NCBI RefSeq assembly: GCF_011806405.1
Contig: NZ_JAATOW010000044.1
Coordinates: 1-33,340, forward strand
Direction of reading: 5' to 3'
Source: Pseudooceanicola sp. HF7
GTDB lineage: Bacteria > Pseudomonadota > Alphaproteobacteria > Rhodobacterales > Rhodobacteraceae
Length of the DNA stretch: 33,340 nucleotides
A program made the translations under genes and the position numbers. Within the stretch, counting starts at the first letter, position 1; each line of letters begins with the position of its first letter. Positions 3,944-33,161 of this stretch are shown piece after piece. The notes under the pieces were generated by a model. The model saw nothing but the letters and a program-made list of their open reading frames with translations. It did not search any database and was not told where the DNA came from.

Positions 3944-3944
3944 C

Positions 3945-11038: not shown

Positions 11039-11039
<1 letters not shown>

Positions 11040-11989: not shown

Positions 11990-12014
11990 TTCAGGTCTTC
12001 GCTTCTGAAAGGGA

Positions 12015-13618: not shown

Positions 13619-13637
13619 GAAGCGGCCTTGAAAGGGC

Positions 13638-13664: not shown

Positions 13665-13673
13665 AGGTGTTGA

Positions 13674-14786: not shown

Positions 14787-14820
14787 GTGGTTTCCTCTCT
14801 GTTCTGTAGGCGCAGCCGGA

Positions 14821-15867
14821 TCAGAAGATCAGGCTGTCTGTTGGGGCCCAACGGACCCAGATCTGGCGTCCGGGTTGCACGCCGTCGGGCAGATCGGCTG
14901 TGGGCTGGTCCAAGACCAGCGGCGTGGCATCCGTGGTGCTTTCCAGCAGCAGGCGCGACGTGGCGCCCATGTAGATCCTGTCGGTGACCTTGCAGGGCAT
15001 GGCGGTGGCGTCTGCCCCTGTCAGAAGGGTCATCTTCTCGGGGCGCACGGCCAGGTGGGTTGCGCCCTCTGCCGGGCCGGGCAGCGGCAGGCTGATGCCG
15101 CCCACCTGCGCCATGCCACTGGTGAAGCTGGCCGGCATCACGTTGATCTCACCCAGGAATTCGGCAACGAAACGGTTGGCCGGGCGCTCGTAGACTTCCG
15201 TCGGCGTGGCGATCTGCTGCAAACGGCCGTGGTTGAAGATCGCGATACGCGAGGACAGCGCCAGCGCTTCGGACTGGTCGTGGGTGACGAAGACGAAGGT
15301 GGTGCCCATCCGGGCGTGGATGCGCCGCATCTCTTCCTGCATCTGGCCGCGCAGGTTCTTGTCCAGCGCGGAAAAGGGTTCATCCAGCAGGAGCACGGGG
15401 GGTTCATAGGCCAGGGCGCGGGCCAGGGCGACCCGCTGCTGCTGACCACCCGACAGGCCCGTCGGCTTCTTGTGGCCATGGCCCGCAAGCCCCACCAGCT
15501 CGATCATCTCTGCCACGCGGCTCTTGATCTGCGCCGCCGAGCGTTTCTGGACCTTGAGCGGGAAGGCGATGTTTTCCTCCACCGTCATGTGCGGGAACAG
15601 CGCGTAGCCCTGGAAGACCATGCCGAAGCCGCGCGCCTCTGCCGGGGACAGGGTGCGATCCATGCCATCGATCAGCAGGGATCCACGGGTGGCCTGCTCG
15701 AAACCCGAAAGGATCATCAGGAAGGTCGTCTTGCCGGAGCCCGACGGCCCGAGCAGCGTGACGAACTCTCCGGGGTTGATCGTCATCGAGATGTCATCCA
15801 GCGCGGTGAAACTGCCAAAATCCTTGCCGATAGCGACGGCTTCGATGGCTGCCGAAGAGGTATTCAC
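14821..15867 (-). CDS. ABC transporter ATP-binding protein, PotA-like
   Basis: 348 residues. Walker A GPSGSGKT (40-47), Q-loop Q86, signature LSGGQQQ (138-144), Walker B LLLDEP (159-164) and switch H196 are all intact, and a C-terminal TOBE-type regulatory domain (about 240-348) is present. It is the first gene of the importer operon, 34 bases ahead of the binding-protein gene. The 130-base gap upstream holds an AT-rich region and a LysR-like dyad, likely the operon promoter. Confidence 0.92.
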   Translation of the reverse strand: MNTSSAAIEAVAIGKDFGSFTALDDISMTINPGEFVTLLGPSGSGKTTFLMILSGFEQATRGSLLIDGMDRTLSPAEARGFGMVFQGYALFPHMTVEENIAFPLKVQKRSAAQIKSRVAEMIELVGLAGHGHKKPTGLSGGQQQRVALARALAYEPPVLLLDEPFSALDKNLRGQMQEEMRRIHARMGTTFVFVTHDQSEALALSSRIAIFNHGRLQQIATPTEVYERPANRFVAEFLGEINVMPASFTSGMAQVGGISLPLPGPAEGATHLAVRPEKMTLLTGADATAMPCKVTDRIYMGATSRLLLESTTDATPLVLDQPTADLPDGVQPGRQIWVRWAPTDSLIF

Positions 15868-16953: not shown

Positions 16954-17817
16954 TCAGGGGCCGGTCGCGGCGATCTCTGCCCGGATCCAGTCCAGGAAGG
17001 CAGAGGCCGGCGCGGTCAGACCGCCGGGCGTCGGCGTGATCCAGTAGCCCGCGCCCGAGGGCAACTCATGATCAAAGACCCGCACCAGCCGCCCTGTACT
17101 GAGCGCGCGGGCCGAGGTCAGCGCATCGCCCAACCCGATGCCCAGCCCCGCCTCTGCCGCCGCGTACATCGCCAGCAGGCCGGTAAAGCGAATGCCGCCA
17201 CCGCTGGTCGGCACCGGGCTTTGCACGGCCGTCAGCCAGTGAGCCCAGTCGTCGCGGTTATCCAGGTGCAGCAGCATGTCCGGCGCCAGGCTCTGCGGCG
17301 TGAGACCCGCGTTGGCATAGAGGAAATCCGGACTGCACACTGGGAAGAAGGTCACGTCAAAAAGGTGCTCTGCCCCCTCTCCGGGCGTGGCGGTAAAGGC
17401 GATTTCCAGGTCGCAGGGCGGAAAGCTCTCGCCAAGCGCCACGCTACGCAGGGTCAGGGAAATCTCAGGGAAGCCATTGAGAAAACGGCGTAATCTAGGG
17501 GCCAGCCAGGTGGCCGCCAGGCCGGAGGACACGGCAATGTCCAGCCCGCCGCGCGCCATGCCCAATCCCCGGTGCGCGTCCCGCAACGCCGCCAACCCAG
17601 GAGAGACCGCCGCCACGTAGCGCCGCGCCTCTCCGGTCAGGGCCACGCCCCGGCCCTGCGGCGTGGTCAGCCTGAACCCCAGGTGCGCCTCAAGCGCCTT
17701 CAGCTTGTGGGACACCGCGCTCTGGCTCAGGTGCACCGCCTCTGCCGTGCGGCTGACGGATCCCGTGCGGGCCAGGGCCTCCAGCACTTCCAGAGCAGAG
17801 ATGGGTGGTAGATTCAT
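16954..17817 (-). CDS. LysR-family regulator (GcvA-like), divergent from desaturase-like gene
   Basis: 287 residues from ATG 17817 (MNLPPISALEVLEALARTG). Helix-turn-helix LARTGSVSRTAEAVHLSQSA then VSHKLKALEAHLGF; effector-binding domain from about residue 90. I rejected a start further upstream because it would cross the divergent promoter and enter the desaturase-like gene. The start has no good ribosome site. It is probably the regulator of the diverging two-gene unit. The region between them holds nested inverted repeats. Confidence 0.82.
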   Translation of the reverse strand: MNLPPISALEVLEALARTGSVSRTAEAVHLSQSAVSHKLKALEAHLGFRLTTPQGRGVALTGEARRYVAAVSPGLAALRDAHRGLGMARGGLDIAVSSGLAATWLAPRLRRFLNGFPEISLTLRSVALGESFPPCDLEIAFTATPGEGAEHLFDVTFFPVCSPDFLYANAGLTPQSLAPDMLLHLDNRDDWAHWLTAVQSPVPTSGGGIRFTGLLAMYAAAEAGLGIGLGDALTSARALSTGRLVRVFDHELPSGAGYWITPTPGGLTAPASAFLDWIRAEIAATGP

Positions 17818-17825
17818 GCAGGAAT

Positions 17826-17862
17826 TGCATGTGATTGCGGAAATAATGTCAATAGACATGCA
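17826..17862. promoter_or_regulatory. Overlapping dyads in the LysR / desaturase divergent promoter
   Basis: TGCATGT (17826-17832) and ACATGCA (17856-17862) are perfect 7-bp arms. Overlapping the right arm, ATGTC (17846-17850) and GACAT (17855-17859) form a tighter dyad. They lie in an AT-rich stretch between divergent starts 17817 and 17924, as expected for a LysR activation plus autorepression site. Confidence 0.45.
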
Positions 17863-17888
17863 GAATATTGATGAAATACCCTTGGCGC

Positions 17889-17912
17889 GCAACAGGACAG
17901 GCAACAGGACAA
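17889..17912 (+). repeat. 12-bp tandem repeat in the desaturase leader
   Basis: GCAACAGGACAG is followed by GCAACAGGACAA, 11 of 12 bases identical, ending 11 bases before the ATG. Each copy contains an AGGA that resembles a ribosome site; AGGGG immediately after is the functional-looking one. Confidence 0.7.
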
Positions 17913-17923
17913 GGGGACACGCC

Positions 17924-18907
17924 ATGGAAGCGAGCTTTTCACGCCGGAAACTGCTGGAACCCGCAGAGCTGAAGGCGCTGAACCAGCGCTCGGATCTGCG
18001 CGGCTGGCTGCAGATGGGCAGCCACCTTGGGGCCATCGCCGTGACGGGCTGGCTGCATTACCTGGCCATGGGGACGTGGTGGGTGCTGCTGACCGGCTTC
18101 GTGCTGGGGGTGCTGATCAACTTCCTATACGCGGCCCAGCATGAGCTGTCCCATTCCACCGTCTTCGCCACCCGGCAGGTGAATGAATTCTGGGGCCGGG
18201 TCATCGGCTTCTTCATGCTCTTCCCGCGCGATTACGACCAGATCATGCACTTCGCCCACCACCAGTGGACCCAGGACTGGGAACGCGATGGCGAACTGGT
18301 GCGCGAACCCTATACGCTGCGGACCTACCTGCTGTGGCTCTCCGGCGTATCCTACTGGAAAAACAGGGTTCTGGGCATCGTGCGCCGCGCCCGCGGGATC
18401 ATCATCGAGCCCTATATCCGCGCCGATCAGGAGGCCAAGGTGATCCGCGAAAGCCGCATCCACCTGGCGCTTTACATCGCGATCATCGCCGTTTTCGCGG
18501 CGTTCGGCAGCTGGGCCTGGGCGACCTTCTGGATCATCCCAATGGTGCTGACCAAACCCGTTCACCAGCTGCAGAACACGATCGAGCACCTGGGCCTCAG
18601 CCATGAGCAGAACATCCTGGAGAACACCCGCTCGACCCGCACCAACGCGGTGATGCGCTGGCTCTGCTGGCAGATGCCTTACCACACCGCGCATCACACC
18701 TTCCCCTCCGTGCCGTTCTGGAAGCTGAAGCACCTGAATGCCAAGATCGAGGACAAGGCAGGCGAGGTCTGGCGGATGGGCTGGATCGAATTCCAGATCG
18801 AGGTGATCGGCAAGCTGCGCCAGAAAGACGAAAGCCAGTACCCGATGAACGAGGTCTGGGTACTGCCCACCCGGGGCGGTCGCACAGTGCGCATGGCCGC
18901 GGAATGA
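17924..18907 (+). CDS. Fatty-acid-desaturase-family membrane diiron enzyme
   Basis: 327 residues from ATG 17924 (AGGGG 7 bases upstream). All histidine boxes of membrane diiron desaturases/hydroxylases are present: H73-x3-H77 (QHELSH), H109-x2-H112-H113 (HFAHH), EHLGLSH (222-227), and H254-x2-H257-H258 (YHTAHH). Hydrophobic segments lie at about 35-70, 93-100 and 180-210. The family uses O2 to desaturate or hydroxylate lipids or small molecules. The stop overlaps the next gene (ATGA), tying it to an isomerase-like protein rather than to lipid genes, and a LysR is divergent. This suggests a catabolic, perhaps small-molecule, role; the substrate is unknown. Confidence 0.8.
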   Translation: MEASFSRRKLLEPAELKALNQRSDLRGWLQMGSHLGAIAVTGWLHYLAMGTWWVLLTGFVLGVLINFLYAAQHELSHSTVFATRQVNEFWGRVIGFFMLFPRDYDQIMHFAHHQWTQDWERDGELVREPYTLRTYLLWLSGVSYWKNRVLGIVRRARGIIIEPYIRADQEAKVIRESRIHLALYIAIIAVFAAFGSWAWATFWIIPMVLTKPVHQLQNTIEHLGLSHEQNILENTRSTRTNAVMRWLCWQMPYHTAHHTFPSVPFWKLKHLNAKIEDKAGEVWRMGWIEFQIEVIGKLRQKDESQYPMNEVWVLPTRGGRTVRMAAE

Positions 18908-19749
18908 CCATGGGCCAGACTCTGGATGTCTATACCTCGCTCTGGGCCATGCAGCCCCATGACCAGAGCGGGATCAAGCTGCCCTATGAAGAGGTGGTGA
19001 GCATGGTGGCCGAGGCCGGCTACCGCGGCATGGCGCTGGATTTCGGCGCCACCCCGGCGGAGGATGTGAAGCGTATCCTGCCGATGATGGCTCAGGCGGG
19101 GCTGCGGCCCTTCCTGGTGGATTTTCCCAAGACAATCGAGGGGTTGCGCCCCACCCTGCGGCTGGCAAAGGAGCATGACGCCCCCTTCGTCGTGGTCATC
19201 GGGCAGGTCATGCCGCTGACTGTCGAGGGCATGATCCCGGTGATCCGCGCCTGGATCGCCATGTCCGAAGAGGAAGGCATGCCGGTCCTTTTCGAGACCC
19301 ATCGCAACTGCATCACCAATGACCTTTACACCACGCTCTGCCTGCTGGACGCGGTGCCGGAAATGCGGCTGTGCGCGGATCTTTCGCATTACGTGGTGGG
19401 GCGGGAGATGACCTTGCCGATCCCGGAGCGGGAGCTGGGGCACATCAGCCGGATCCTGGCGCGCTCGGACAGTTTCCAGGGGCGCATCGCGGGGCGCCAG
19501 CAGGTGCAGCTGCAGCTTGATTTCCCGCAGAACCAGAAGTGGGTGGAGCTGTTCAAGGGCTGGTGGGAAGAGGGCTTTGCCGGCTGGCGCAAGCGCAACG
19601 CGGAGGATGCCTCCTGCGTTTTCCTGTGTGAGCTGGGGCCGCCGGATTATGCCATAACCGGTTCAGATGGAAAGGAAATGTCCAACCGCTGGGAAGAGGC
19701 GCTGACGATCAAGTCCTGGGTCGAAGACATGTGGAAGGCGCTCGACTGA
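18904..19749 (+). CDS. Sugar phosphate isomerase/epimerase-like TIM-barrel protein
   Basis: 281 residues, AP-endonuclease-2/xylose-isomerase-like barrel. Likely metal-binding residues sit at strand ends: E131 (VLFETHRN), D159 and H162 (CADLSHYVV), and E243 (FLCELGPP). Start overlaps the desaturase-like stop (ATGA), so the two are made together. The family includes isomerases, epimerases, dehydratases and hydrolases; I cannot name the reaction. A hairpin 30 bases after the stop probably ends the unit. Confidence 0.72.
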   Translation: MTMGQTLDVYTSLWAMQPHDQSGIKLPYEEVVSMVAEAGYRGMALDFGATPAEDVKRILPMMAQAGLRPFLVDFPKTIEGLRPTLRLAKEHDAPFVVVIGQVMPLTVEGMIPVIRAWIAMSEEEGMPVLFETHRNCITNDLYTTLCLLDAVPEMRLCADLSHYVVGREMTLPIPERELGHISRILARSDSFQGRIAGRQQVQLQLDFPQNQKWVELFKGWWEEGFAGWRKRNAEDASCVFLCELGPPDYAITGSDGKEMSNRWEEALTIKSWVEDMWKALD

Positions 19750-21215: not shown

Positions 21216-22526
21216 TCAGCCCGTGCCGATCATCGTATCCGGCAGGAAGAGCGAGATCGACGGGAAGGCGATCAGCAGCCCCAGCGTCAGCAGCATGGCG
21301 ATCCAGAAGGGGATGACCCCGATGAAGATCTGGCCCAGCGGCACCTTTGGCGCGATGGATTTGACGATAAAGACATTGACCCCCACGGGTGGGGAAATCA
21401 GCCCCATCTCAAGCGTCAGCACCACCAGCACGCCGAACCAGATCGGGTCGATCCCCAGGGAGACGATCACCGGGAAGAAGATCGGCATCGACAGCACCAG
21501 CATGGCGAAGCCTTCCAGGAAGCAGCCCAGCACCAGGTAGCACAGCAGGATCAGCCCCAGCACCGCCATGGGCGGCAGGTCCATGCCCCCCAGGAAGGCG
21601 CCGATCGCCTGCGGGATATGGGAGAGCGCCAAGAAAGGGTTCATCATGTGGGCAGAGATCAGGATCAGCATGACCGTCGCCGTGGTCACGACCGAATCCC
21701 GGGACGCCTGCCAGAGGATGGCGAGGGTGAGCGTGCGCGACAGGATCCCGAACAGGATGACCAGCCCCGCGCCCACCGCCGCGGCCTCGACCGGGGAAAA
21801 CAGGCCGCCGTAGATGCCGCCGATGGTCAGCACGATCACGGTCATGATCGGTGCCGCCCCGCCAAGGGCGCGCAGCTTCTGCGCGGCGCTGGTGCGTGGC
21901 CCGGCGGGGGCCAGCGCGGGAAGCGCCCAGCAGAGCAGCGTGATGGTCAGCACGAACATCGACAGCAGCAGCAGCCCCGGCAGCACGCCGGCCAGGAAGA
22001 GCCGCCCGATGCTTTCCTGGGCCAGGATCGCGTAGATCACGAAGCCGGTGGAGGGCGGGATCAGGATGCCCAGAGTTCCCCCCGCCGCGACGGAGCCCGC
22101 AGAGAGGCGGGAGTCATAGCCGAAGCGCTCCATCTCCCCAAGGGAGACCTTGCCCATGGTCAGCGCCGAGGCCACCGAAGAGCCCGAGAGCGCGGCAAAG
22201 CCCCCGCAGCCGATGACCGTGGCCGAGGCCAGCCCGCCCCGGATCTGCCCGATCAGCGCATAGGCGGCATCGTAGAGCCGGCGGCTCATCCCCGTGGAGG
22301 TGGCGACATTGCCCATCAGGATGAAGAGCGGCACCACGATCAGCTCGGAAGACGAAGCCAGCGTGAAGCTTTCCGAGGCCAGCAGCCCGGTGGCCGCGTC
22401 GAAGCTGCGCAGCAGGGCGATGCCGGTGAAGCCGACCGCGAACATGGCGAAGGCCACGGGGATGCGCAGCGTCAGCAGGACCAGCAGAACAGCCAGGCCC
22501 GTGAGGCCGATGGACATGTCAGTCAT
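21216..22526 (-). CDS. TRAP transporter large permease, DctM-type
   Basis: 436 residues from ATG 22526; a GTG at 22535 that overlaps the dctQ stop as GTGA is an equally possible start. About twelve hydrophobic segments, beginning LTGLAVLLVLLTLRIPVAFAM. Family motifs such as SGSSVASALTMGKVSLGEM and the late GLISPPVGVNVFIV segment are clear. It uses an ion gradient to import the ligand delivered by the periplasmic DctP protein. It is the last gene of the dctP-dctQ-dctM operon, closed by the hairpin at 21155-21183. Confidence 0.93.
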   Translation of the reverse strand: MTDMSIGLTGLAVLLVLLTLRIPVAFAMFAVGFTGIALLRSFDAATGLLASESFTLASSSELIVVPLFILMGNVATSTGMSRRLYDAAYALIGQIRGGLASATVIGCGGFAALSGSSVASALTMGKVSLGEMERFGYDSRLSAGSVAAGGTLGILIPPSTGFVIYAILAQESIGRLFLAGVLPGLLLLSMFVLTITLLCWALPALAPAGPRTSAAQKLRALGGAAPIMTVIVLTIGGIYGGLFSPVEAAAVGAGLVILFGILSRTLTLAILWQASRDSVVTTATVMLILISAHMMNPFLALSHIPQAIGAFLGGMDLPPMAVLGLILLCYLVLGCFLEGFAMLVLSMPIFFPVIVSLGIDPIWFGVLVVLTLEMGLISPPVGVNVFIVKSIAPKVPLGQIFIGVIPFWIAMLLTLGLLIAFPSISLFLPDTMIGTG

Positions 22527-22531
22527 TTGGG

Positions 22532-23038
22532 TCACTCACTTCGGGGTTCGGCCGGGCGCGGCGAACCGGCCAGCAGGGAAAGGGCGCGCAGGGTCATGCC
22601 CAGCCCGGTGATCACCGAGAAGACGGCCAGGACGGTCTGGAACCAGGCCTTTGGCAGCTGGATGATATTGGTCGACAGGTTCAGCATCCGCGACAGGGCG
22701 GCGCTTTCCATGACGGTCCAGGCGATGCCGAAGAAGATCACCGCGCCCAGCAGGGCGGTCGCGATATCCCCGGCGCGGCGCAGCCAGGCCGGCATGGCCG
22801 GTTCGAAGAGATCCACGGCGATATGGCCGCCGAGCCGGTCACACAGGCTCATGCCGCCGAAGACCACGATGACCATGGTCATGGTCGTGATGTCCTGGGC
22901 CCCGCGCAGGGGGGCGCCGAAATAGCGCCCCACCACGTCGACAAGGATGATCACGACCTCTGTCAGCAGGCCAAGCGTGCCGAGCAGGGCGGCCAGGCTG
23001 GTCAGCCCCGCCGCCCATCTGTCGAGGCGCGCGAGCAT
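22532..23038 (-). CDS. TRAP transporter small permease, DctQ-type
   Basis: 168 residues with four hydrophobic segments, including EVVIILVDVVGRYFGAPL and the GAQDITTMTMVIVVFGG stretch typical of DctQ. ATG 23038 lies one base after the dctP stop (TGAGATG), giving coupled translation. It forms the membrane complex with the large permease. Confidence 0.9.
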   Translation of the reverse strand: MLARLDRWAAGLTSLAALLGTLGLLTEVVIILVDVVGRYFGAPLRGAQDITTMTMVIVVFGGMSLCDRLGGHIAVDLFEPAMPAWLRRAGDIATALLGAVIFFGIAWTVMESAALSRMLNLSTNIIQLPKAWFQTVLAVFSVITGLGMTLRALSLLAGSPRPAEPRSE

Positions 23039-23039
23039 C

Positions 23040-24017
23040 TCAGCCGTCGCCGCGCATGATGGCCAGCACGTCAGCGCCGTCGACCTCTTCGGCGATGGCA
23101 TCGGTCAGCGGTTCGGTCAGCGCGTTGAATGGCGCGGCCTCTTCCGCGGAAAGCTCGATCACCGTGGTGCCTTCCTTGGACTTCAGCCCCTCGATGATCT
23201 GGTCGGCGCGGGCGAACCAGCCTTCTTCGGCTGATTGGGACAGGGTGCGGCCGCGCACACTGTCGAGCGCGGCTTTCTCAGCCTCGCCCAGGGCGTCGTA
23301 GCGGGCCTTGTTCATCACCACGTAGAAGGAGATCTGCCCCATCGACGGGCCGAGCGTGTAGCTGTTGGCCACCTCGTCCAGCTTGAAGTCGCCGATGGCG
23401 GAAGAGCCGGTGACGATGGCATCGATCAGGCCGGTCTGCAGGGCGTTGTACATCTCTGTCGCGGGCATCTGCACCGGGGTGGCGCCCAGGGATTCGATGA
23501 CGCGGGCGGCGGCAGAGCCGGAAACGCGGATCTTCAGGCCCTCGACGTCCTCGGGGGTGCGGATCTCACGGTCCTTGGTGATGAAGACATTGGGCTCAGC
23601 CAGCCAGAGCGCCAGCGGCACGGTGGCGGGGAATTCGCGTTCCAGCAGGCCCGCGTCCCAGGCATCCCAGAGCAGCTCGTAGCCGTGGCCGTCCGGGCCG
23701 CGCACGCCGGGCAGCTCGGAGATCATGGTCTTGGAGAACTGCGACGAGGTATAGCCGGGCAGGCCCCAGACCACGTCCGCCACGCCCTGAACGGCGCGGA
23801 CATATTGTTCCAGCGGGCCGGCGCCCAGCTCTCCGCCGGGGTAGACCTTGATTTCCAGCTCGGACTCGCCGGAGCCCGCGGCCTCTGCCAGCGGTTCGAT
23901 GACGGCCGAGGTCAGCGTGTGCTGCGGGGGCACGAAATGCGCGAAGCTGATGTCTTCGGCCAGTGCGGCACCGGCGAAGGAAACTGCGGCGCAGGCGCCG
24001 ATAAGAGTTCTGATCAT
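23040..24017 (-). CDS. TRAP transporter substrate-binding protein, DctP-type
   Basis: 325 residues. A Sec signal peptide (MIRTLIGACAAVSFAGAALA, cleavage after residue 20) precedes the periplasmic domain. Family features include SGSAAARVIESLGATPVQMP and the following MYNALQTGLIDAIVTG segment, with the conserved Arg of the RVSGSAA stretch that usually binds a substrate carboxylate. AGGAGG lies 9 bases before ATG 24017. This predicts a carboxylate ligand. The operon lies directly downstream of the P450/ferredoxin genes on the same strand (171-base gap), so the ligand may be the P450 substrate; that link is inference. Confidence 0.9.
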   Translation of the reverse strand: MIRTLIGACAAVSFAGAALAEDISFAHFVPPQHTLTSAVIEPLAEAAGSGESELEIKVYPGGELGAGPLEQYVRAVQGVADVVWGLPGYTSSQFSKTMISELPGVRGPDGHGYELLWDAWDAGLLEREFPATVPLALWLAEPNVFITKDREIRTPEDVEGLKIRVSGSAAARVIESLGATPVQMPATEMYNALQTGLIDAIVTGSSAIGDFKLDEVANSYTLGPSMGQISFYVVMNKARYDALGEAEKAALDSVRGRTLSQSAEEGWFARADQIIEGLKSKEGTTVIELSAEEAAPFNALTEPLTDAIAEEVDGADVLAIMRGDG

Positions 24018-24092
24018 TGGGTCCTCCTCCCTATGGACGGCCGGGTGATCCGGTCCGTTGCGGCAGCGGGCCGAGGCCCTGTGCCGGTCTTG

Positions 24093-24119
24093 CCGCCGCG
24101 CGCCGGAGGCACGCGGCGG
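24093..24119 (-). terminator. GC-rich hairpin between ferredoxin reductase and TRAP genes
   Basis: CCGCCGCG (24093-24100) pairs with CGCGGCGG (24112-24119) around an 11-base loop in the 171-base gap. No U-run follows. It could end the P450-system transcript or lower read-through into the TRAP genes. Confidence 0.45.
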
Positions 24120-24155
24120 GTCGTTGATTGGGTTCGTCTCCTCCTCAGGCCGAAC

Positions 24156-24200
24156 CCTTCAGACCTTGGCCCCTCAGACCTGGGCCCATTAAACCTGGGC
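24156..24200 (-). repeat. In-frame triplicated 15-bp repeat carrying the reductase stop codon
   Basis: Read on the minus strand, the last codons of the reductase are GCC CAG GTT TAA TGG. The same 15-bp unit follows twice more in the same frame as GCC CAG GTC TGA GGG and GCC AAG GTC TGA AGG. Each copy encodes Ala-Gln/Lys-Val and a stop. This looks like local tandem duplication of the gene end. Confidence 0.8.
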
Positions 24201-25358
24201 CATGTCGAACTCCGCAGCTTCGAGCGCGGCGCGGGCGACGGGGCCCTGGGCCAGGCGCTTGCGGGTCTGCATGTGGGTCTTGGCGTCGTTCACCGTTTCC
24301 ACGGCAGACAGGCGATCCCCGGCAAAGCGGAAGACCGCGCCATCCGGGCGCAGGATCGTGTCGTCGCCCTCGGCGGCCAGGCCGGCGATCTGCAGCTTGC
24401 AATCGGCCTGGTCCGACCAGAACCAGGGCACGGCGCCGTAGGGGTCATCGACCTGTTTCACCAGCCGCTTGGCAATCAGCCGCGCGTGATCGGTGGCCGC
24501 CTGGACGGATTCAAGGCGCACCGCCCGTCCGGTGACCGGATCGGGGAAGACCGCGCAATCGCCCAGGGCCGAGATCGCGGGATCCTCTGTCAGCATCCGG
24601 GTGTCCACGACAACGCCATTGTCCACCGCCAGACCGGCAGAGGCCGCAAGTTCGCTGTTGGGCACGACGCCGGCGGCCATCAGCACCAGGTCCGCCTGGA
24701 TCTCTGTCCCGCTTTTCAGCGTGATGCCATCGGCGCGCACGGCGCAGACCGGATCGCCCAGGTGGATATCGCTGCCCATATCGCGGTGCAGCGCCAGGAA
24801 GCGCTCGGAGGTTTCCGGCGAGACGGCGCGCGCCATGAGGCGCGGCGCGGCTTCGGCCAGGGTGACCTCGTGCCCAAGAGCGCGGGCCACGGCAGCAAAT
24901 TCCAGCCCGATGAAGCCGCCGCCGATCACGGCGCAGCGCATCGGCCGGTCCAGCGCGTTGCGCAGGCGCAGGGCGTCATCGAGGGTGCGCAGGTCCAGCG
25001 CCTGTTCCGCGCCGGGAATGGGCGGGCGCAGGTTGCGGGTGCCGGTGGCCAGGATCAGGTGATCGTAGTCAAAGGACCGGTCCCCCGCCATCACGCGGCG
25101 CGCCGCGCGGTCGATCGCCTCCACATGGGTGCCATCGACCAGCGTGATCTGCTTCTTTTCAAAGAAGCTGGCCGGGCGCAGGCTGAGGGCATCGGCATCG
25201 CCGGTCTTGAGATAGGCCTTGGAGAGCGGCGGGCGCTGGTAGGGCAGGCCCTTTTCCGCGCCGATCAGGGTGATGGCGCCTTCAAAGCCTTCCTGGCGCA
25301 GGCTCATCGCGGCCTGAAGACCGCCCTGCCCCGCCCCGATGATGACGACGTTCTGCAT
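24189..25358 (-). CDS. FAD-dependent ferredoxin reductase (putidaredoxin reductase type)
   Basis: 389 residues. FAD loop VVIIGAGQGG at the N-terminus, NADH loop CAVIGGGFIG at about 142-151, and the second FAD motif with ALGDCAVFPD. This is the layout of putidaredoxin/rhodocoxin reductases, which pass electrons from NADH to a [2Fe-2S] ferredoxin serving a P450. It starts 3 bases after the ferredoxin stop, completing a three-component P450 system. The stop lies in a triplicated 15-bp repeat. Confidence 0.92.
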   Translation of the reverse strand: MQNVVIIGAGQGGLQAAMSLRQEGFEGAITLIGAEKGLPYQRPPLSKAYLKTGDADALSLRPASFFEKKQITLVDGTHVEAIDRAARRVMAGDRSFDYDHLILATGTRNLRPPIPGAEQALDLRTLDDALRLRNALDRPMRCAVIGGGFIGLEFAAVARALGHEVTLAEAAPRLMARAVSPETSERFLALHRDMGSDIHLGDPVCAVRADGITLKSGTEIQADLVLMAAGVVPNSELAASAGLAVDNGVVVDTRMLTEDPAISALGDCAVFPDPVTGRAVRLESVQAATDHARLIAKRLVKQVDDPYGAVPWFWSDQADCKLQIAGLAAEGDDTILRPDGAVFRFAGDRLSAVETVNDAKTHMQTRKRLAQGPVARAALEAAEFDMAQV

Positions 25359-25361
25359 TGC

Positions 25362-25685
25362 TCAGGCCTGTTCTTCGGGCAGGTGGACGATCAGCCCGTC
25401 CATGTCCTCGGTCAGCTTGATCTGGCACGACAGGCGCGAGGTTTCCTTCACCTCGTCCGCGGCGCAATCCAGCATGTCGTCTTCGCCGTCATGGCGTTCG
25501 CCGGTCTTTTCGGTCCAGTCGTCATCCACGTAGCAATGGCAGGTCGCGCACATCATAGCGCCGCCGCATTCGCCCACGATGCCGTCAACGTCATTGTCCA
25601 GCGCGGTCTGCATCACGTTGCTGCCCGGGGCGGCATCGACCGTGGTGCGCGTGCCATCGGCCGCGACATAGGTCACCTTGACCAT
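25362..25685 (-). CDS. [2Fe-2S] ferredoxin, putidaredoxin type
   Basis: 107 residues. Cluster ligands C40, C46, C49 (GECGGAMMCATCH) and C87 (RLSCQ) have the spacing of putidaredoxin and adrenodoxin. AGGAGGAG precedes ATG 25685. It lies 39 bases after the P450 stop and 3 bases before the reductase, so it is the electron carrier between the two. Confidence 0.95.
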   Translation of the reverse strand: MVKVTYVAADGTRTTVDAAPGSNVMQTALDNDVDGIVGECGGAMMCATCHCYVDDDWTEKTGERHDGEDDMLDCAADEVKETSRLSCQIKLTEDMDGLIVHLPEEQA

Positions 25686-25724
25686 GGTAATCTCCTCCTG
25701 AAGTCTCGTGTCGTTTGCCGGCGC

Positions 25725-26900
25725 TCAGTTGAGCGTCACGGGCATGTTGATCGGCCCGCGGAATCCGAAGCCGCGCCATTTGACGGCCTCCGGATCGGGC
25801 AGCGTCATGTTCGGGAAGCGTTCGAACAGGGCCGGCATCATGATCTCGCCCACGGTGCGGCGCGCGATATGGGCCCCCGCGCAATGGTGCGGGCCGGAAC
25901 CGAAGGCCTGGTGGACGTTCTTGTCCCGGAAGACGTGGAAATTCTCACTGTCTTCATAGAGATCCTCGTCCCGGTTGGCCGAGGCCTGGACCGTCATCAG
26001 GATATCGCCCTTGGCGATGTCGCAGCCGCCGATCTGGATGTCGTCCATCGCCACGCGAGAGGAACACTGGATCGGCGCGACCCAGCGGACGCCCTCTTCG
26101 AAGGCGGCGCCCCAGGCCTCTTGCCGGCGGACTTCTTCCAGCTGCTCGGGGTTGGTCAGCAGGCCGTAGATGATGGTGGCCATGGCATCGCGCGGTTCAT
26201 TGATGCCGCCGCCGATGGCGATCTTGATATTGGCCTCGACCTGGCTCCAGGGGATCGGATCGGCCGCGTTGACCATCAGGGACAGGGCGGAATCGTCGGG
26301 CTCTGCCCGCAGGCGCTCTGCGCAATCCGCGATCAGCACGTTCATTTCCTGGTTCGCGCGGTCGGTGATGGCAAAGAGATCGGGATCCCAGCCGAAGTTG
26401 CCCGCGCCGTCGATCAGCTGCTGTGACCAGCGCATCATGTCCTCGTCCGAAGCGCCGTGCAGGCCCAGGATATGGATCAGGATGCGGGCCGAGACCGGGC
26501 CGCAGATTTCCTGGTAGAGATCCACGGTTTCGCCGCGCGGCAGACGGTCCAGGTATTCGGCCGTGATGTCACGGTAGACCTGGGCCCAGTTGGTCTTGAT
26601 GATCTTGGGGGTAAAGGCCTTTTGCATGGCCATCCGTTCGCGCCGGTGCTCATCGCCATCCTTGCGCATCAGCGTATGGGCGCGGAAGGCCGGGTGCATC
26701 GGGGATTCAGGATCGTTGGAGCTGAACAGCTCCGCATCGTCCTTCACCATCTTGGTGAATTCCGCCTTGGTCAGCAGCGTGCGGTTGACCGAGGGCACCC
26801 GGACCACCGGGGTTTCGGCCCGCATGCGGCGGTAGATCGGATAGGGATCCAGGACCAGGTCCTTGATCATTACGCTTTCATCAACCGGTGCCAATGGCAT
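25725..26900 (-). CDS. Cytochrome P450 monooxygenase with unusual I-helix
   Basis: 391 residues, a soluble bacterial P450. The haem loop FGSGPHHCAGAHIARR places the cysteine ligand at C340; the K-helix E-x-x-R is E269-R272 (EEGVRW). The I-helix reads AIGGGINEPRDA (228-239). Where P450cam has the acid-alcohol pair GGLDT, this protein has GGINE, so Asp/Thr become N234/E235, followed by Pro. Oxygen activation may therefore differ. GGAGGAGG precedes ATG 26900; a longer upstream frame would overlap the divergent LysR. With the ferredoxin and reductase it forms a complete class I system. The substrate is unknown; the flanking TRAP importer and DddD-type gene suggest a small carboxylate or onium compound, by inference. 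Confidence 0.93.
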   Translation of the reverse strand: MPLAPVDESVMIKDLVLDPYPIYRRMRAETPVVRVPSVNRTLLTKAEFTKMVKDDAELFSSNDPESPMHPAFRAHTLMRKDGDEHRRERMAMQKAFTPKIIKTNWAQVYRDITAEYLDRLPRGETVDLYQEICGPVSARILIHILGLHGASDEDMMRWSQQLIDGAGNFGWDPDLFAITDRANQEMNVLIADCAERLRAEPDDSALSLMVNAADPIPWSQVEANIKIAIGGGINEPRDAMATIIYGLLTNPEQLEEVRRQEAWGAAFEEGVRWVAPIQCSSRVAMDDIQIGGCDIAKGDILMTVQASANRDEDLYEDSENFHVFRDKNVHQAFGSGPHHCAGAHIARRTVGEIMMPALFERFPNMTLPDPEAVKWRGFGFRGPINMPVTLN

Positions 26901-26966
26901 TGTCGACGCCTCCTCCCAAAGAACGTGTTCGCTTAGAAGGGCACAGGCCTCGCAATCTTTCAACCA

Positions 26967-27029: not shown

Positions 27030-27929
27030 ATGACAGACCCGCATCAGCTTGATTTCCGTGCCTTTCATTTCCTGACGGTGGTGCACCGCGAGCGGTCCTT
27101 CAGCCAGGCGGCGGAGGTGCTTGGGGTGAGCCAGTCGATGGTGAGCTATGCGATCGAGAAGCTGCGGCAGGTCTTTGATGATCCGCTTTTCGTGCGCGAG
27201 GCCGGCAGCACCCTGCCCACGCCGCGCTGCGAGGAGCTGGTCAGCTATGCCTCTGGCCTGCTGTCGGATTTCGAGGCGATCCGCGCGGGCAAGGATTTCG
27301 ATCCCGCCACCACCACCGCGCGCTTCACCATCGCCTGCAACTACTACGAGCGCTCGCTGATGATCCCCGCCGTCATCGCCACCCTGCGCAAGCAGGCCCC
27401 GCTGCTGCACCTGGAGGTGATCGATGCGGCGGGCGGCGGGCATACGCGCCTGCTGGAGGGCGACGCGGATCTGCTGATCGGCCCCTACCGGCGGCAGGAT
27501 GTGTCCTTTTACGAAAGGATGCTGTTCATTGACCGCTACGCCTGCCTGATGGATCCCGGCCACCCCTCAGCCAACCAGGTACTCACGCTGGAGGAATACC
27601 TGGCCTTCGAACATATCCTGATCACTTACGGGGGGCACTGGATCTCTCCCTATATCCACGAGATCGAGAGCATGGGGCACCAGATCACCCCCGCCCTGCG
27701 CGTGCCAAGCCCGGCGGGGATCGACCGGCTGGTGACGGGGTCGAACCTGGTGGCGACGGTGCCGCGGCGGCTGGCGCTGAACCACGGCGCGCAGCTGCGG
27801 GTGCTGGATTGCCCGGTGGGCGCGCCGGTGGAGGTCAAGATGGTCTGGAGCGGGCGCAACCATCACTCCGCTCTGCACAAATGGGTGCGCGATCTGATCT
27901 CGCGCACCGTGGCACAGCCGGCGCGCTAG
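27030..27929 (+). CDS. LysR-family regulator of the P450 operon
   Basis: 299 residues. Helix-turn-helix VVHRERSFSQAAEVLGVSQ then SMVSYAIEKLRQVFDDPLFVRE; the wing ends in the usual DDPLFVRE. The effector domain begins at about residue 90 and contains YGGHWISPYIHE. Length and the FVR motif resemble NodD/PcpR-like LysR proteins rather than the GcvA type seen elsewhere here. GGAGGAG lies upstream of ATG 27030. It is divergent from the P450 gene and convergent with the DddD-type gene. Confidence 0.87.
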   Translation: MTDPHQLDFRAFHFLTVVHRERSFSQAAEVLGVSQSMVSYAIEKLRQVFDDPLFVREAGSTLPTPRCEELVSYASGLLSDFEAIRAGKDFDPATTTARFTIACNYYERSLMIPAVIATLRKQAPLLHLEVIDAAGGGHTRLLEGDADLLIGPYRRQDVSFYERMLFIDRYACLMDPGHPSANQVLTLEEYLAFEHILITYGGHWISPYIHEIESMGHQITPALRVPSPAGIDRLVTGSNLVATVPRRLALNHGAQLRVLDCPVGAPVEVKMVWSGRNHHSALHKWVRDLISRTVAQPAR

Positions 27930-27955: not shown

Positions 27956-30466
27956 TCAGCTGGGCAGATACTCCCGGCTCCAGGAGGTGCTGACCGCGCC
28001 GGCATCCAGCATCTTCTGAACTGCCGCCTCGCTATAGCCCAGCTCTGCCAGGATCTCGCGGGTGGAGGTGCCGAACTTTTCCGCCGGGCTCACGGCCATC
28101 ACCGCGCCACGGCGGGTGCGCACCGCGTAGGGATCAAGCTGCGTGACCTCGTGGCCAGAGGGGTGATCGCGGTAGATCGAGAAGGAATAGCTGCCGTTCT
28201 GCGTGCCCGGCGTGCCATCGGCCTCATGTTCGTTGCGGGCGCGCAGGGCGTCGATGTTCTCACAGATCGCCACGCCGATATCGGCGGCGCGCAGGCGGGT
28301 GACCCATTCCTGGGCCGGCTGGGCCTGGAAGGCGGTGGCAAGGTAGGCCGCGCGATCCTCGACCGGGATATCGGGCAGGTCTTCCAGCCCCTCCACCGCC
28401 CGGAAGCGGGGCAGATCGTTTTCCCAGGCACATAGCAGGATGTGACGGCCCGAGGCGGTGGAATAGAAGCGCGCCAGGTCGTTCCAGCCGCTGACATCGG
28501 GGCCGGAGGGTTCATCGAAAAGCCCCCTGCCCTTGAAGTCATAGGCGAAGGGCACCTGCAGCAGCCCGGCATTGGCAGAGAGCGAGGTGCGCCCGCGCCC
28601 GATGCGTCCATGGCGGTACTTCTGGTAGAGCGCCGCGGCCACCGAAAGCGCGCCGCCGAAGCCGCACATGACGTCGATCGTACCGACGTGGGCGTGTTCC
28701 TCTGGCCGGTCCATGGCGCCGCCAAAGCGGGTCATGATGCCGGTCGCGGCCTGCACCAGGTCATCGTAACCGATGTAATCCGTGCGCACCCCGCGCCGCA
28801 CGCCGGAGAAGCAATCCAGCTTGCAGAAGATCGCATCCGGGTTGAGCTTGCGCAGCTGCTCTGCATCCAGGCCCATCTTGCGGATCTGGCTGTCCGGCGC
28901 GTTCCAGACGATCACATCCACGGTCTTCACCAGATCCTCCAGCACCTGCTGGCCATGGCGCGATTTCAGGTCCACCAGGATGGATTTCTTGCCCCGTCCC
29001 TGGCTCATCCCGTAGATGACGGTGTTCCAGCTGTCATACATCGGCTGGGCCGGATCGAGCTTGATCACCTCTGCGCCGAAGCGGGCCAGGTAGCTGGCCG
29101 AATGCGGGCCGGCGATGACGTTGCACAGGTCCAGCACGCGCACGCCGCTCAGCCAGGCCTCCTGGTCGTTGTCCTCGGTGGCGGCGGGGATGTCGGTGCG
29201 CAGGGCGCGCAGGATCTTCAGCGCCTCCGGCATCTCGACCCAGCGACGGGGTTCGGGGCTGAGGGCTTCTTCGCCGCTTTCCTCCATCCAGACCACCGGG
29301 CCGGGCATCGTCATCTCACCGTAGACCGGATCCCAGAGGTCGATCATCAGGCCGGAGGCCTCTGCGTATTCGTCGTTGATCCATTCCTGCAACCACAGCT
29401 GTGGCCCGCCGGGAATGCCCGCGCGCCCGAACAGCTTGACCCATTCGCGCGCGGTGCGGGTCATGAAGACCTCTTTCATCCGGGCGGCGATGTGATCGGC
29501 CCAGTCCTTTGGCATCGGGTAGACCCCGAGGGAGACATGGGCGGACCATTCGGCATAGGGGCGATAGGTGTCCTCTTCCGAGGTCAGCCCCTCTTCGACC
29601 AGTTCATCGTAGATGCCCAGAACCTCCAGGCAGCGCCTGGCGTGGTACTTGTGGCTGGGGCAGACGACGTAGAACATGCGCCCGTCCTTGCACATGTAGC
29701 TGCGGAAGAAGGGATCCAGCAGTTCCTGGAGCTCTTCGTAGGAGACATTCATCTGCAGGCCTTCGATCCGGCGGCGCTCGATCTCCTTTTCCCGCTGGGT
29801 CAGGTAGCGTTCGGGCATGTCGGCGACGCGGATGGAATTGTAACACAGCCCCTCCATGATGGCGGCGGCCAGCGGCACCTCGATCTGGTCGCCGCGCCCG
29901 GTCACCTGGCGCGATTGCAGCGCCAGCACCACGGCAGAGCCGGCGATCTGCGCCGCGTAGGCAGAAGACAGCGGCAGCGGAGAGAAGGAGGGGTTCACCC
30001 CCATCAGCACCCGGTTCAGCCCCATGTCCGTGAACACGCCGGAGCTGGCCGCGACCACGCTTTCAAAGGCGCGCTGTTCGCGGCGCTCCAGGTCGTTCGA
30101 GGCAAAGCCGGGGATCGACAGCGTGATCAGCTCTGGCCGGTCCTGGCACATCTGGTCGAAATCCAGGCCCAGGGCGGCCAGCTTGCCGGGGCGGAAGTTC
30201 TCTATGATCACGTCGGCTTCGTCGCAGAGCGCGCGGGCATCGGCCAGCCCTGCCTCTGTCTTCAGGTCAAGGGTCACGATGACCTTGTTGCGGTTCAGCG
30301 TGGCATTGGCCGGGCTGTCCCACATCGGACCCTGGGGCGGATCGACCTTGACCACGGTGGCGCCAAGGTCCCCCAGCAGCATGCCCACGGCGGGGCCTGC
30401 AATATATTGTCCGAAATCAACGACTTTCACGCCAGTCAGCGGAAGGTGGGAAAAGGTCTGACGCAT
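27956..30466 (-). CDS. dddD: DddD-type double CaiB protein (DMSP CoA-transferase/lyase family)
   Basis: 836 residues made of two class III CoA-transferase (CaiB/BaiF) units, about 10-420 and 440-835. Both open with the same motif: GVKVVDFGQYIAGPAV (12-27) and GVRVLDLCNVIAGPHS (441-456). The second half has the catalytic Asp (GYDDLVQAATG, D568); the first has Glu in that place (AFESVVAASSG, E135). Length, the two-unit build and an active Asp only in the second unit match DddD, which converts DMSP with an acyl-CoA donor to 3-hydroxypropionyl-CoA and DMS. ATG 30466 has GGAG upstream. It follows a GMC oxidoreductase gene by 37 bases. A different onium substrate, such as a carnitine-like compound, remains possible, and no BCCT transporter is nearby. 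Confidence 0.78.
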   Translation of the reverse strand: MRQTFSHLPLTGVKVVDFGQYIAGPAVGMLLGDLGATVVKVDPPQGPMWDSPANATLNRNKVIVTLDLKTEAGLADARALCDEADVIIENFRPGKLAALGLDFDQMCQDRPELITLSIPGFASNDLERREQRAFESVVAASSGVFTDMGLNRVLMGVNPSFSPLPLSSAYAAQIAGSAVVLALQSRQVTGRGDQIEVPLAAAIMEGLCYNSIRVADMPERYLTQREKEIERRRIEGLQMNVSYEELQELLDPFFRSYMCKDGRMFYVVCPSHKYHARRCLEVLGIYDELVEEGLTSEEDTYRPYAEWSAHVSLGVYPMPKDWADHIAARMKEVFMTRTAREWVKLFGRAGIPGGPQLWLQEWINDEYAEASGLMIDLWDPVYGEMTMPGPVVWMEESGEEALSPEPRRWVEMPEALKILRALRTDIPAATEDNDQEAWLSGVRVLDLCNVIAGPHSASYLARFGAEVIKLDPAQPMYDSWNTVIYGMSQGRGKKSILVDLKSRHGQQVLEDLVKTVDVIVWNAPDSQIRKMGLDAEQLRKLNPDAIFCKLDCFSGVRRGVRTDYIGYDDLVQAATGIMTRFGGAMDRPEEHAHVGTIDVMCGFGGALSVAAALYQKYRHGRIGRGRTSLSANAGLLQVPFAYDFKGRGLFDEPSGPDVSGWNDLARFYSTASGRHILLCAWENDLPRFRAVEGLEDLPDIPVEDRAAYLATAFQAQPAQEWVTRLRAADIGVAICENIDALRARNEHEADGTPGTQNGSYSFSIYRDHPSGHEVTQLDPYAVRTRRGAVMAVSPAEKFGTSTREILAELGYSEAAVQKMLDAGAVSTSWSREYLPS

Positions 30467-30503
30467 GGGCGCTCCGACAGGTTGAGGGGGCTTGGCAGCC
30501 GGG

Positions 30504-32153
30504 TCACTGCCCGGACAGGATCCAGCCCGCGGCTTTTTCGGCAATCATGAGGGTCGGCGAATTGGTGTTGCCGCTGGTGATCCGCGGCATGATCGAGGCA
30601 TCCACGACCCGCAGCCCGGCGATCCCGCGCACCCGCAGATGCGGATCCAGGGGGGCGGACTCCTCCTCCGCGTGGCCCATGCGGATGGTGCCGGTGGGGT
30701 GGAAGATCGTGCTGGCGATATCGCCGGCCAGGCGCGCCAGCTCTTCATCGGACTGGTACTGCACGCCGGGTTTATGTTCCTGCGGCGCATAGCCGGCCAT
30801 CGCGGGCTGGGCCATGATACGGCGCACCTGGCGCAGGCTGTCGGCGGCGACCTTTCGGTCCTCCTCTGTCGACAGGTAGTTCGGCGTGATCTTCGGCGCG
30901 TCGCGGAAATCGGCGGAGCCGATGCGCACGTGACCGCGCGAGCTGGGGTTGAGGTTGCAGACCGAGACGGTGATCGCCGGGAAGGCATGCAGCGGCTCCC
31001 CGAAGGCATCCAGGGAGAGCGGCTGGACGTGGTATTGCAGGTTGGCATGGGTGCGCGAAGGGTCCGAGCGCGTGAAGGCGCCAAGCTGGCTGGGCGCCAT
31101 GCTCATCGGGCCGGAGCGCCGGAACAGGTATTCCATGCCGATGGTCGCCTTGCCGATCAGGGTGCCGGCCAGGGCGTTCAGGGTGCGGGTGCCATCGACC
31201 TTGAAGACGGTGCGGATCTGCAGGTGATCCTGCAGGTTCTCGCCCACCTCTGGCATGTCGCGCACCACCTCAATCCCGTGCTCGCGCAGCAGTGCCGCCG
31301 GGCCGATCCCGGAGAGTTGCAGGATCTGGGGCGAGTTCACGGCGCCTGCCGAGAGCACGACCTCACGCCGGGCGGTGACAGGGGTGCTGCGGCCGGCGCG
31401 GTTGACCATCGCGCCGCTGCACCGGGTGCCCTCGAATGTCAGCTTCTCGACCAGGGACTCGGTCCAGATGGTCAGGTTGGGGCGTTTCCTTGCCGGGCGC
31501 AGGAAGGCCTTGGAGGTGTTCCAGCGCCAGCCGGAGCGCTGGTTGACGTCGAAATAGCCCACGCCGGAATTGTCCCCGGTGTTGAAATCCTGGGTCTTTT
31601 CGACGCCGGTTTCCGCCGCGGCCTCCGCGAAGCTGTCCAGCACGTCCCACCGCAGGCGCTGCTTTTCCACGCGCCATTCCCCGCCCGTGCCATGCAGGTC
31701 CGAAAAGCGGCTGTTGTCGCCGGTCTGCGGATCGGCGCCATCATCCAGGCGGTAGTGATCCTCGTGCCGCTTGAAGTCTTCGAGCGAGCTCTCCCAGCCC
31801 CAGGCGTCCTCGCCTGTCAGCTCTGCCCAGGCATCGTAATCGCGCGCCTGGCCGCGCATGTAGATCATCCCGTTGATGGAGGAGCAGCCCCCCAGCGTCT
31901 TGCCGCGCGGATACTTCAGGCTGCGCCCGTTCAGGCCCGGATCGGCCTCTGTGCTGTAAAGCCAGTCGACGCGCGGATTGCCGATGGAATAGAGGTATCC
32001 GACGGGAATATGGATCCAGGGGTAATTGTCCGGCTTGCCCGCTTCCAGCAGCAGGACCCGGTTGGAGGGATCCGCGCTGAGCCGGTTTGCCAGCAGGCAT
32101 CCGGCCGTTCCGGCGCCCACGACGATATAATCAAACTCCATGTCGCCCGTCAT
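30504..32153 (-). CDS. GMC-family FAD oxidoreductase, choline-dehydrogenase-like (DddA-like)
   Basis: 549 residues, full length for choline dehydrogenase relatives. FAD loop VVGAGTAGCLLANRLS (11-26), GMC signature region PRGKTLGGCSSINGMIYMRG (82-101), and active-site H485 (FHPTGTIRMG) with N529 (GNTNSPTLM). GGAGGAGG precedes ATG 32153. It is the first gene of a two-gene operon with dddD. In Halomonas HTNK1 a GMC enzyme, DddA, oxidises 3-hydroxypropionate from DMSP to malonate semialdehyde, and the same role fits here. No dddC-type dehydrogenase is in the window, so the next step would be encoded elsewhere. Choline or another alcohol is the alternative substrate. Confidence 0.8.
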   Translation of the reverse strand: MTGDMEFDYIVVGAGTAGCLLANRLSADPSNRVLLLEAGKPDNYPWIHIPVGYLYSIGNPRVDWLYSTEADPGLNGRSLKYPRGKTLGGCSSINGMIYMRGQARDYDAWAELTGEDAWGWESSLEDFKRHEDHYRLDDGADPQTGDNSRFSDLHGTGGEWRVEKQRLRWDVLDSFAEAAAETGVEKTQDFNTGDNSGVGYFDVNQRSGWRWNTSKAFLRPARKRPNLTIWTESLVEKLTFEGTRCSGAMVNRAGRSTPVTARREVVLSAGAVNSPQILQLSGIGPAALLREHGIEVVRDMPEVGENLQDHLQIRTVFKVDGTRTLNALAGTLIGKATIGMEYLFRRSGPMSMAPSQLGAFTRSDPSRTHANLQYHVQPLSLDAFGEPLHAFPAITVSVCNLNPSSRGHVRIGSADFRDAPKITPNYLSTEEDRKVAADSLRQVRRIMAQPAMAGYAPQEHKPGVQYQSDEELARLAGDIASTIFHPTGTIRMGHAEEESAPLDPHLRVRGIAGLRVVDASIMPRITSGNTNSPTLMIAEKAAGWILSGQ

Positions 32154-32229: not shown

Positions 32230-32248
32230 ATATTATAGATTTTAATAT
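32230..32248. promoter_or_regulatory. AT-rich dyad overlapping the LysR start, candidate operator
   Basis: ATATTA (32230-32235) and TAATAT (32243-32248) form a perfect dyad with a 7-base spacer, an AT island in GC-rich DNA. It lies in the 93 bases between divergent starts 32153 and 32247 and runs into the LysR ATG, which would suit autorepression. Confidence 0.5.
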
Positions 32249-33161
32249 GGAGCGCCTGTCGAACATCAACCTGCTGCTGGCCTTTGCCACCGTCGCCCAG
32301 GAGGGCAGCGTGTCCCGGGCGGCCGAGCGGCTGAACCTGACGCAGCCGGCGGTCAGCCACCAGCTGAAGCGGCTGGCCGAAGAGACCGGGACGCAGCTGT
32401 TCCGCCGGACTGGCACGGGGCTGGAGCTGACCCGGGAGGGGGCCGCGCTGGTGCCCCGGGCCGAACGCGTGTTGGAGGCCATGAGCGAGTTCACCCGCGG
32501 GGCGCAGCAGCAGGCGGGGCGGATCGCCGGGCGGCTGCGGATCGGCACGATCCTGGATCCCGATTTCATCCGCCTCGGTCCGCTGTTGCAGGCGCTGCGG
32601 GCCGATTACCCGGATGTGGCGACAGAGCTGAGCCATGCGGTCAGCGGAGAGACCCTGGCCCGGCTGATGCGCGGCCAGATCGACGGCGGCTTCTTCCTGA
32701 ATGGGCCTGAGATCCCCAAACCGCGAACCGAGGACGACCGGCTGCATGTCATGTGGCTGGCCGATTTCACCTACCGGGTGATCGCGCCGCCGGGCTGGCA
32801 GAGCCGGGTGGAAAGCGCCGACTGGCCGGCCCTGGCGGAGATGCCCTGGATCGGCACGCCGCCGACCTCGGCCCATCACGGCCTTCTGGGGGCGATCTTT
32901 GCCCGCCACGGGGTGCGCCAGAGGGTGGTGGCGGAGGTGGACCAAGAGGCCTCCATGCTGGAGATGGTGCGCGCGGGGGTGGGGCTGAGCCTGAGCCGGG
33001 AATCCATCGCGCTGCACCAGCGCCAGACCGCGGGCCTGTCGGTTGCCGAGGCGGTTTCCGTTCCCGCCAGCCTGGGGTTCATCACGTTGCAGCGCCATCT
33101 GGCGCAGCCTACCGTCGGGGTGGTTATGGATGCCTTAAGACGGACCTGGTTCGGCGGCTGA
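32247..33161 (+). CDS. LysR-family regulator, divergent from GMC-dddD operon
   Basis: 304 residues from ATG 32247 (MERLSNINLLLAFATVAQEG). Helix-turn-helix AQEGSVSRAAERLNLTQPAV then SHQLKRLAEETGTQLF; effector domain from about residue 90 (GRLRIGTILDPDFIRL). A TTG ten codons upstream is a less likely start. No clear ribosome site precedes the ATG. Position suggests it controls the GMC-dddD operon, comparable to LysR-type DddR genes of other dddD clusters; the ligand is unknown. Confidence 0.85.
   Translation: MERLSNINLLLAFATVAQEGSVSRAAERLNLTQPAVSHQLKRLAEETGTQLFRRTGTGLELTREGAALVPRAERVLEAMSEFTRGAQQQAGRIAGRLRIGTILDPDFIRLGPLLQALRADYPDVATELSHAVSGETLARLMRGQIDGGFFLNGPEIPKPRTEDDRLHVMWLADFTYRVIAPPGWQSRVESADWPALAEMPWIGTPPTSAHHGLLGAIFARHGVRQRVVAEVDQEASMLEMVRAGVGLSLSRESIALHQRQTAGLSVAEAVSVPASLGFITLQRHLAQPTVGVVMDALRRTWFGG

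Follow-up and report, generated by a model that had tools for sequence, protein, structure and literature searches.

A probable alphaproteobacterial-type dddA-dddD operon, predicted to cleave DMSP, in Pseudooceanicola sp. HF7

In our study, Pseudooceanicola sp. HF7 was found to contain a pair of adjoining genes that forms, with a probability of about 0.87, an alphaproteobacterial-type dddA-dddD operon with a divergent LysR gene, which would convert DMSP to DMS and begin to use the three-carbon acid that is left, with an unlinked methylmalonate-semialdehyde dehydrogenase (MMSDH) for the later step and with unlinked uptake. The pair lies in the window, the whole stretch of 33,340 nucleotides that was analysed, which makes up contig C38 entirely, in a draft genome of 4.27 Mb and 97% completeness, and can be read only to the contig end past the divergent LysR gene. 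The dddA-dddD unit is genuine and is an ordinary member of a known family, and the pathway is already known. DMSP cleavage is by far its most likely function and DMS is very probably released; the substrate, products, regulation and uptake discussed below are predictions from sequence comparison. DMS is a climate-active gas, and with the window the Dinoroseobacter family gains a further genome that probably uses the DddD route.

Structure of the gene pair and its surroundings

The features of the pair and of its neighbours were as follows.

27030..27929, plus strand: LysR2, a neighbouring LysR gene, convergent with dddD and probably outside the unit
27956..30466, minus strand: dddD, a fused double CaiB protein (class III CoA-transferase) of the DMSP CoA-transferase/lyase type, 836 amino acids
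28763..28765, minus strand: codon of D568, the predicted catalytic Asp of the second unit (from the alignment)
30062..30064, minus strand: codon of E135, the Glu at the matching place of the first unit (from the translation)
30347..30349, minus strand: codon of residue 40, a Lys, where the other 96 DddD rows have His (from the alignment)
30504..32153, minus strand: dddA-like GMC (flavin) oxidoreductase, predicted to oxidise 3-hydroxypropionate, 549 amino acids
32209..32235, no strand assigned: operator-like motif between LysR1 and the GMC gene, with TAATAT at 32235-32230 and GTCATT at 32214-32209, read on the minus strand
32247..33161, plus strand: LysR1, a LysR-type regulator divergent from the GMC gene, with the ATG start at 32247 set by homology

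The dddD product contained two fused class III CoA-transferase units and fell within the DddD size of about 830-840 residues; the Pfam family CoA_transf_3 matched it in two stretches (381.5 bits). In the translation, residue 135 was E (context RAFESVVAASSGVF) and residue 568 was D (context GYDDLVQAATGIM), at equivalent places in the two units. The first-pass annotation had described an 836-residue fused double CaiB protein with E135 in the first unit and D568 in the second, and a GMC oxidoreductase 37 bases upstream on the same strand, and both descriptions were confirmed. Both genes were intact open frames, and dddD is no chance reading frame, since relatives were found in other genomes of its family.

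In a comparison with PDB sequences, D568 was aligned to the Asp in the GYD motif of a formyl-CoA transferase of known structure; this Asp is catalytic in that family. The catalytic Asp of DddD was reportedly placed in the second unit by Alcolombri in 2014. None of the 35 PDB matches was a solved fused double-CaiB protein; all were single-unit chains of 359-456 residues. D568 and E135 were each invariant in 97/97 DddD rows, and together they show a predicted intact active site. The annotation had used the second-unit Asp as a cue for DddD, and the residue was indeed present, but it is not diagnostic: D568 and E135 were both also invariant in all nine rows of a look-alike clade, and the two residues were therefore rejected as a DddD signature.

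Among 213 columns that were the same in at least 96 of the 97 DddD rows, the window's DddD departed at three (A28G, H40K and Q387M), the joint highest number of any DddD row and equalled by one other row. The usual residues at 28, 40 and 387 were kept by the two genus relatives of the window. The changes to K40 and G28 might touch CoA binding, which is a guess, and the three changes would count against the DMSP reading.

The longest open reading frame of LysR1 began at TTG 32217. By hand count, 16 of the 20 GMC-type loci contained a LysR1 relative, which in 14 was directly divergent from the GMC gene. With LysR starts set by homology in the window and in three rhizobial loci, GTCATT was found 32 nt from the start codon in 10 of the 11 loci compared, and TAATAT was found 11 nt from it in eight (the window, Phaeobacter and six same-family loci). 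LysR2 was rejected as a member of the unit, being absent from the other loci: no match to it was kept in any other locus compared, and a comparison with the second LysR found in the ddd locus of Phaeobacter gave no match at E 1e-10.

Several other gene groups were present on the contig. The region 140-8114 contained genes for a BKACE protein, an ADP-forming acyl-CoA ligase, an acyl-CoA dehydrogenase, a GbdR/FtrA-like AraC regulator, a class II aldolase and a gamma-butyrobetaine/TmpA-like dioxygenase, which together resemble a cluster for the catabolism of quaternary-ammonium compounds of the carnitine or butyrobetaine type; only the aldolase scored above an NCBIfam cut-off. The ADP-forming ligase (1859-4051) belongs to the ACD superfamily, which includes DddX; a role as a DddX-type second DMSP lyase found no support, with 198 bits to DddX (7cm9) against 202 to 4-hydroxybutyrate-CoA ligase. 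The region 10086-15867 contained a 2-hydroxyacid dehydrogenase, an agmatinase-family enzyme (above the TIGR01230 cut-off) and an ABC transporter, which from its domain build we guess to be of the polyamine kind. A protein of the fatty-acid-desaturase family was found at 17663-19746, with a xylose-isomerase-like TIM barrel protein after it, and neither had an NCBIfam match at E 1e-25. In 21216-26948, a P450 (best solved relative 6g71, 269.5 bits) was accompanied by a dedicated 2Fe-2S ferredoxin and ferredoxin reductase, and adjoined DctPQM TRAP transporter genes of the same strand. The transporter (21216-24017) and the P450 group (24189-26948) were rejected as parts of the pathway, not being kept across dddD loci; with the P450, ferredoxin, ferredoxin reductase and DctP as queries, the sole kept match was a 26% DctP, 7 kb from dddD in one locus (L028).

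Relatives of DddD and the look-alike clade

In a translated search of a plasmid collection, the window's DddD was 80% identical to that of Phaeobacter piscinae and 43% identical to proteins of Dinoroseobacter and Ruegeria. The identity was 64-67% to rhizobial proteins, including that of S. fredii NGR234 (65-66%), and 52-59% to those of Paraburkholderia and Pseudomonas (58% and 52% in the plasmid collection). Matches to the fused protein at E 1e-30 were present in 17 of the 198 genomes of the window's family, the window's own included; 11 of these genomes contained a 64-100% match, eight contained a 42-44% match and two contained both. Relatives 64-81% identical over nearly the full length were found in nine other genomes of the family, and a tenth (G076) matched at 79% over residues 1-384 only. 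The locus of this tenth relative (L124) contained the GMC and LysR genes, with the match lying in a 422-residue frame, and its dddD looks truncated or broken. Within the genus of the window, dddD was found in three of the 22 genomes, the window's included.

The tree contained 69 of the 106 fused proteins extracted, 37 rows, nearly all of them gammaproteobacterial records, being left out by hand for speed; it was a quick tree without bootstrap, rooted by us on the look-alikes, and the truncated L124 stood outside it. For the scan of named genomes, the best 80 of 405 matches were taken, ranked against a Pseudomonas sequence, so that gammaproteobacteria dominate. The rows were split with long branches and an SH-aLRT of 100 into nine look-alikes and 60 rows on the DddD side, which contained the window together with Marinomonas, Pseudomonas, Endozoicomonas and SAR92 rows. 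Within the DddD side, the window belonged to a branch of 15 rows that included S. fredii NGR234 DddD (SH-aLRT 100). The annotation had staked its reading on placement in the DddD clade, and this is where the protein was found. For the alignment with Marinomonas and Halomonas DddD that it had proposed, other rows of these genera took the place of MWYL1 and HTNK1; AMMD DddD was likewise not among the rows.

The tree row of NGR234 (L026, pNGR234b) is presumably the ratified accession AAQ87407.1. NGR234 DddD is listed in a table of functionally ratified DddD proteins (PMC8520302), and four SAR92 DddD proteins, including that of H921, which fell in the same clade as the window's, are reported to have been purified and to have released DMS from DMSP with acetyl-CoA (PMC10746254). 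Enzymes of known activity thus flank the window's protein in the tree. Sagittula stellata, a roseobacter with dddD, is reported to cleave both DMSP and DMSOP (PMC10686828). At 32 positions separating DddD from the look-alikes, the window contained the DddD residue at 30; of the remaining two, G28 was the look-alike residue and K40 was of neither kind.

The look-alikes (rows L032, L033, L017-L019 and L021-L024; 42-44% identity) formed one clade apart from DddD, were present in eight of the 198 family genomes and included a Dinoroseobacter shibae plasmid gene. Those of D. shibae and Ruegeria sp. AD91A resembled the window's protein in the fused build, E135 and D568, but were only 43% identical to it and lay in the separate clade, at a support of 100. 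Neither a GMC nor a DddB-type gene was found in the two long look-alike loci that were read. Dshi_3632, which is probably the D. shibae plasmid gene of this clade, is listed as dddD in PMC4069834, with 43% identity to HTNK1 DddD. Caution is needed with dddD names that are given by similarity alone, as for Dshi_3632, which probably belongs to a different clade.

Partner exchange and unlinked pathway genes

The GMC protein contained the Pfam domains GMC_oxred_N and GMC_oxred_C. In Halomonas sp. DQ26W, the best GMC protein was 68-69% identical to it and adjoined a DddC-type MMSDH, the other GMC match was 41% identical, and dddD was on another contig; HTNK1 DddA was not among the sequences compared. 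All 11 genomes of the family that contained a DddD-clade gene had a GMC gene at most 3.4 kb upstream of it, and in 10 the two were direct neighbours.

The partner genes were compared in 99 DddD-type loci, the window included, at identity thresholds of 50% for GMC, 60% for the iron alcohol dehydrogenase of the DddB type, 40% for BCCT and 50% for MMSDH, which were set after the first locus comparison. GMC was present in 20 loci and the DddB-type enzyme in 69, and the two were never found together; 10 loci contained neither, a number that partly reflects missing data, several loci being cut by contig ends. On the tree, the partner label changed at least five times over 58 labelled rows, and a tree that held the 19 GMC rows together, a group defined once the tree was known, was rejected (p-AU 1.3e-76). 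Limimaricola, Rhizobium rhizogenes and Cohaesibacter contained a GMC gene with a DddD of an otherwise mainly gammaproteobacterial branch. The loci and the tree indicate that the DddA and DddB alcohol dehydrogenases have replaced each other beside dddD several times. In Halomonadaceae, dddA is reported to take the place of dddB (PMC9327192). The DddA-like reading of the GMC gene in the first-pass annotation gained support from the 68% identity to the Halomonas protein and from this lack of co-occurrence, and the window's GMC protein is predicted to be of the DddA type and to oxidise 3-hydroxypropionate. No description of the alphaproteobacterial GMC arrangement was found in the literature, of which subscription papers were covered only partly. 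The divergent LysR, the GMC gene and dddD together mark a genuine alphaproteobacterial dddD.

As the annotation had stated, the window contained neither a linked BCCT nor a linked DddC (malonate semialdehyde dehydrogenase), and no linked betaine ABC system of the tested kinds was found in it; the TRAP transporter and another ABC system lay 4-18 kb from the pair, in other gene groups. The annotation had taken this as a sign that the substrate or the uptake route might differ, a view that gained no support, such absence being common in GMC-type loci and a BCCT and an MMSDH being present unlinked in the genome. The stretches read of the 20 GMC-type loci contained an MMSDH in two cases and, at 40% identity or more, a BCCT in five, with a sixth BCCT at 33%; two of the 15 loci without such a BCCT contained a betaine ABC system. 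For the two genus relatives with dddD, 20 kb were read, and no BCCT or close MMSDH was found there.

The single BCCT of the window's genome was found on contig C48, beside a photolyase gene. It shared 41% and 34% identity with the BCCTs of two ddd loci; between themselves, these two were about 40% identical. A single MMSDH above the TIGR01722 cut-off was found on contig C46, with a divergent LysR; the other 21 MMSDH matches of the genome were at most 35% identical. Elsewhere in the genome, betaine ABC permeases were matched at 44% and 40%. Both the BCCT and the MMSDH lay inside their own contigs, more than 8 kb from the ends, so that neither is just a neighbour cut off from the window. The lack of a linked transporter and of a linked DddC counts against reading the window as a full ddd cluster, but is not on its own an argument for another substrate.

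Probable function and comparison with known systems

In the proposed pathway, the Asp of the second unit of DddD would serve to move CoA from acetyl-CoA onto DMSP, and DddD would then cleave the thioester, giving DMS together with 3-hydroxypropionate (free or as the CoA ester). Oxidation of 3-hydroxypropionate to malonate semialdehyde would fall to the GMC flavoenzyme (DddA), and the MMSDH encoded on C46 may convert this semialdehyde to acetyl-CoA; DMSP may be taken up by the unlinked BCCT or betaine ABC systems. The annotation had proposed an operon that cleaves DMSP or a close relative, and this proposal is supported by the DddD clade, the NGR234 branch and the DddA-like GMC gene. No cupin DMSP lyase was found in the window's genome in a PF16867 search, which was run without a positive control.

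It is unlikely that this DddD-clade enzyme acts on DMSP only as a side reaction and mainly serves, in nature, to cleave a related compound, such as DMSOP (which would yield DMSO) or some other small onium acid. DddD enzymes are reported also to cleave DMSOP, and Halomonas HTNK1 to grow on it through dddD, but the same source reports that DddD prefers DMSP (PMC10686828). The lack of a linked transporter and the three changed near-invariant positions would fit such a substrate; however, these positions lie away from D568 and its neighbours, and 15 of the 20 GMC-type loci likewise had no BCCT of at least 40%, two of them with a betaine ABC system instead. Four of the 15 rows in the window's branch came from rhizobia or Methylovirgula, for which DMSP is, in our judgement, no obvious substrate, and this counts against the DMSP reading. 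The GMC-linked alphaproteobacterial branch, which runs from roseobacters to soil rhizobia, might conceivably have shifted from DMSP to DMSOP or to plant or soil onium compounds, with the window's enzyme, given its three changed near-invariant residues and the lack of a linked DMSP transporter, further along, although we consider such a shift improbable.

A carnitine- or betaine-type fused CoA-transferase with only a resemblance to DddD, like the proteins grouped with the D. shibae plasmid gene, would share the fused build, E135 and D568, and the cluster resembling quaternary-ammonium catabolism lies about 20 kb off on the same contig. We consider this reading very unlikely, since the two clades were separated at 100 with long branches, 30 of the 32 separating positions were of the DddD kind and the partner gene belongs to the ddd pathway. 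That the GMC protein is a choline-type dehydrogenase adjoining dddD by chance is extremely unlikely. Its best NCBIfam models were indeed those of choline dehydrogenase, but the subfamily model scored 547 bits against a cut-off of 605 and betA scored 471.5 bits against a curated cut-off of 732.1. Moreover, the pairing was kept in 11/11 family genomes and in rhizobia, the GMC gene never occurred with DddB-type genes, and the other GMC proteins of the genome were only 42-44% identical to it. Cleavage of DMSP by a dddA-dddD operon is preferred as the probable function.

Among the known systems, NGR234 (pNGR234b) shared both the tree branch and the divergent LysR-GMC-DddD order with the window, but contained a betaine-type ABC transporter after DddD, an arrangement also found in R. 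binae. Plasmid pP13_b of P. piscinae had the same gene order (DddD 80%, GMC 79% and LysR1 60% identical); after it came a BCCT gene, a further LysR and an MMSDH of the DddC type, and of these the window has no BCCT or MMSDH. In Halomonas, a GMC-type DddA likewise goes together with DddD, and in Halomonas sp. DQ26W a GMC gene (68% identical to the window's) stood beside an MMSDH. In D47, unlike in the window, dddA is reported to share a transcript with dddC, acuN and acuK, while dddD shares one with dddT (PMC13104084). The dddD-dddTBC clusters of the Marinomonas/SAR92 type contained an enzyme of the same family, about 51-52% identical in two Marinomonas rows and SAR92 H921, but had a DddB-type iron alcohol dehydrogenase where the window has the GMC gene.
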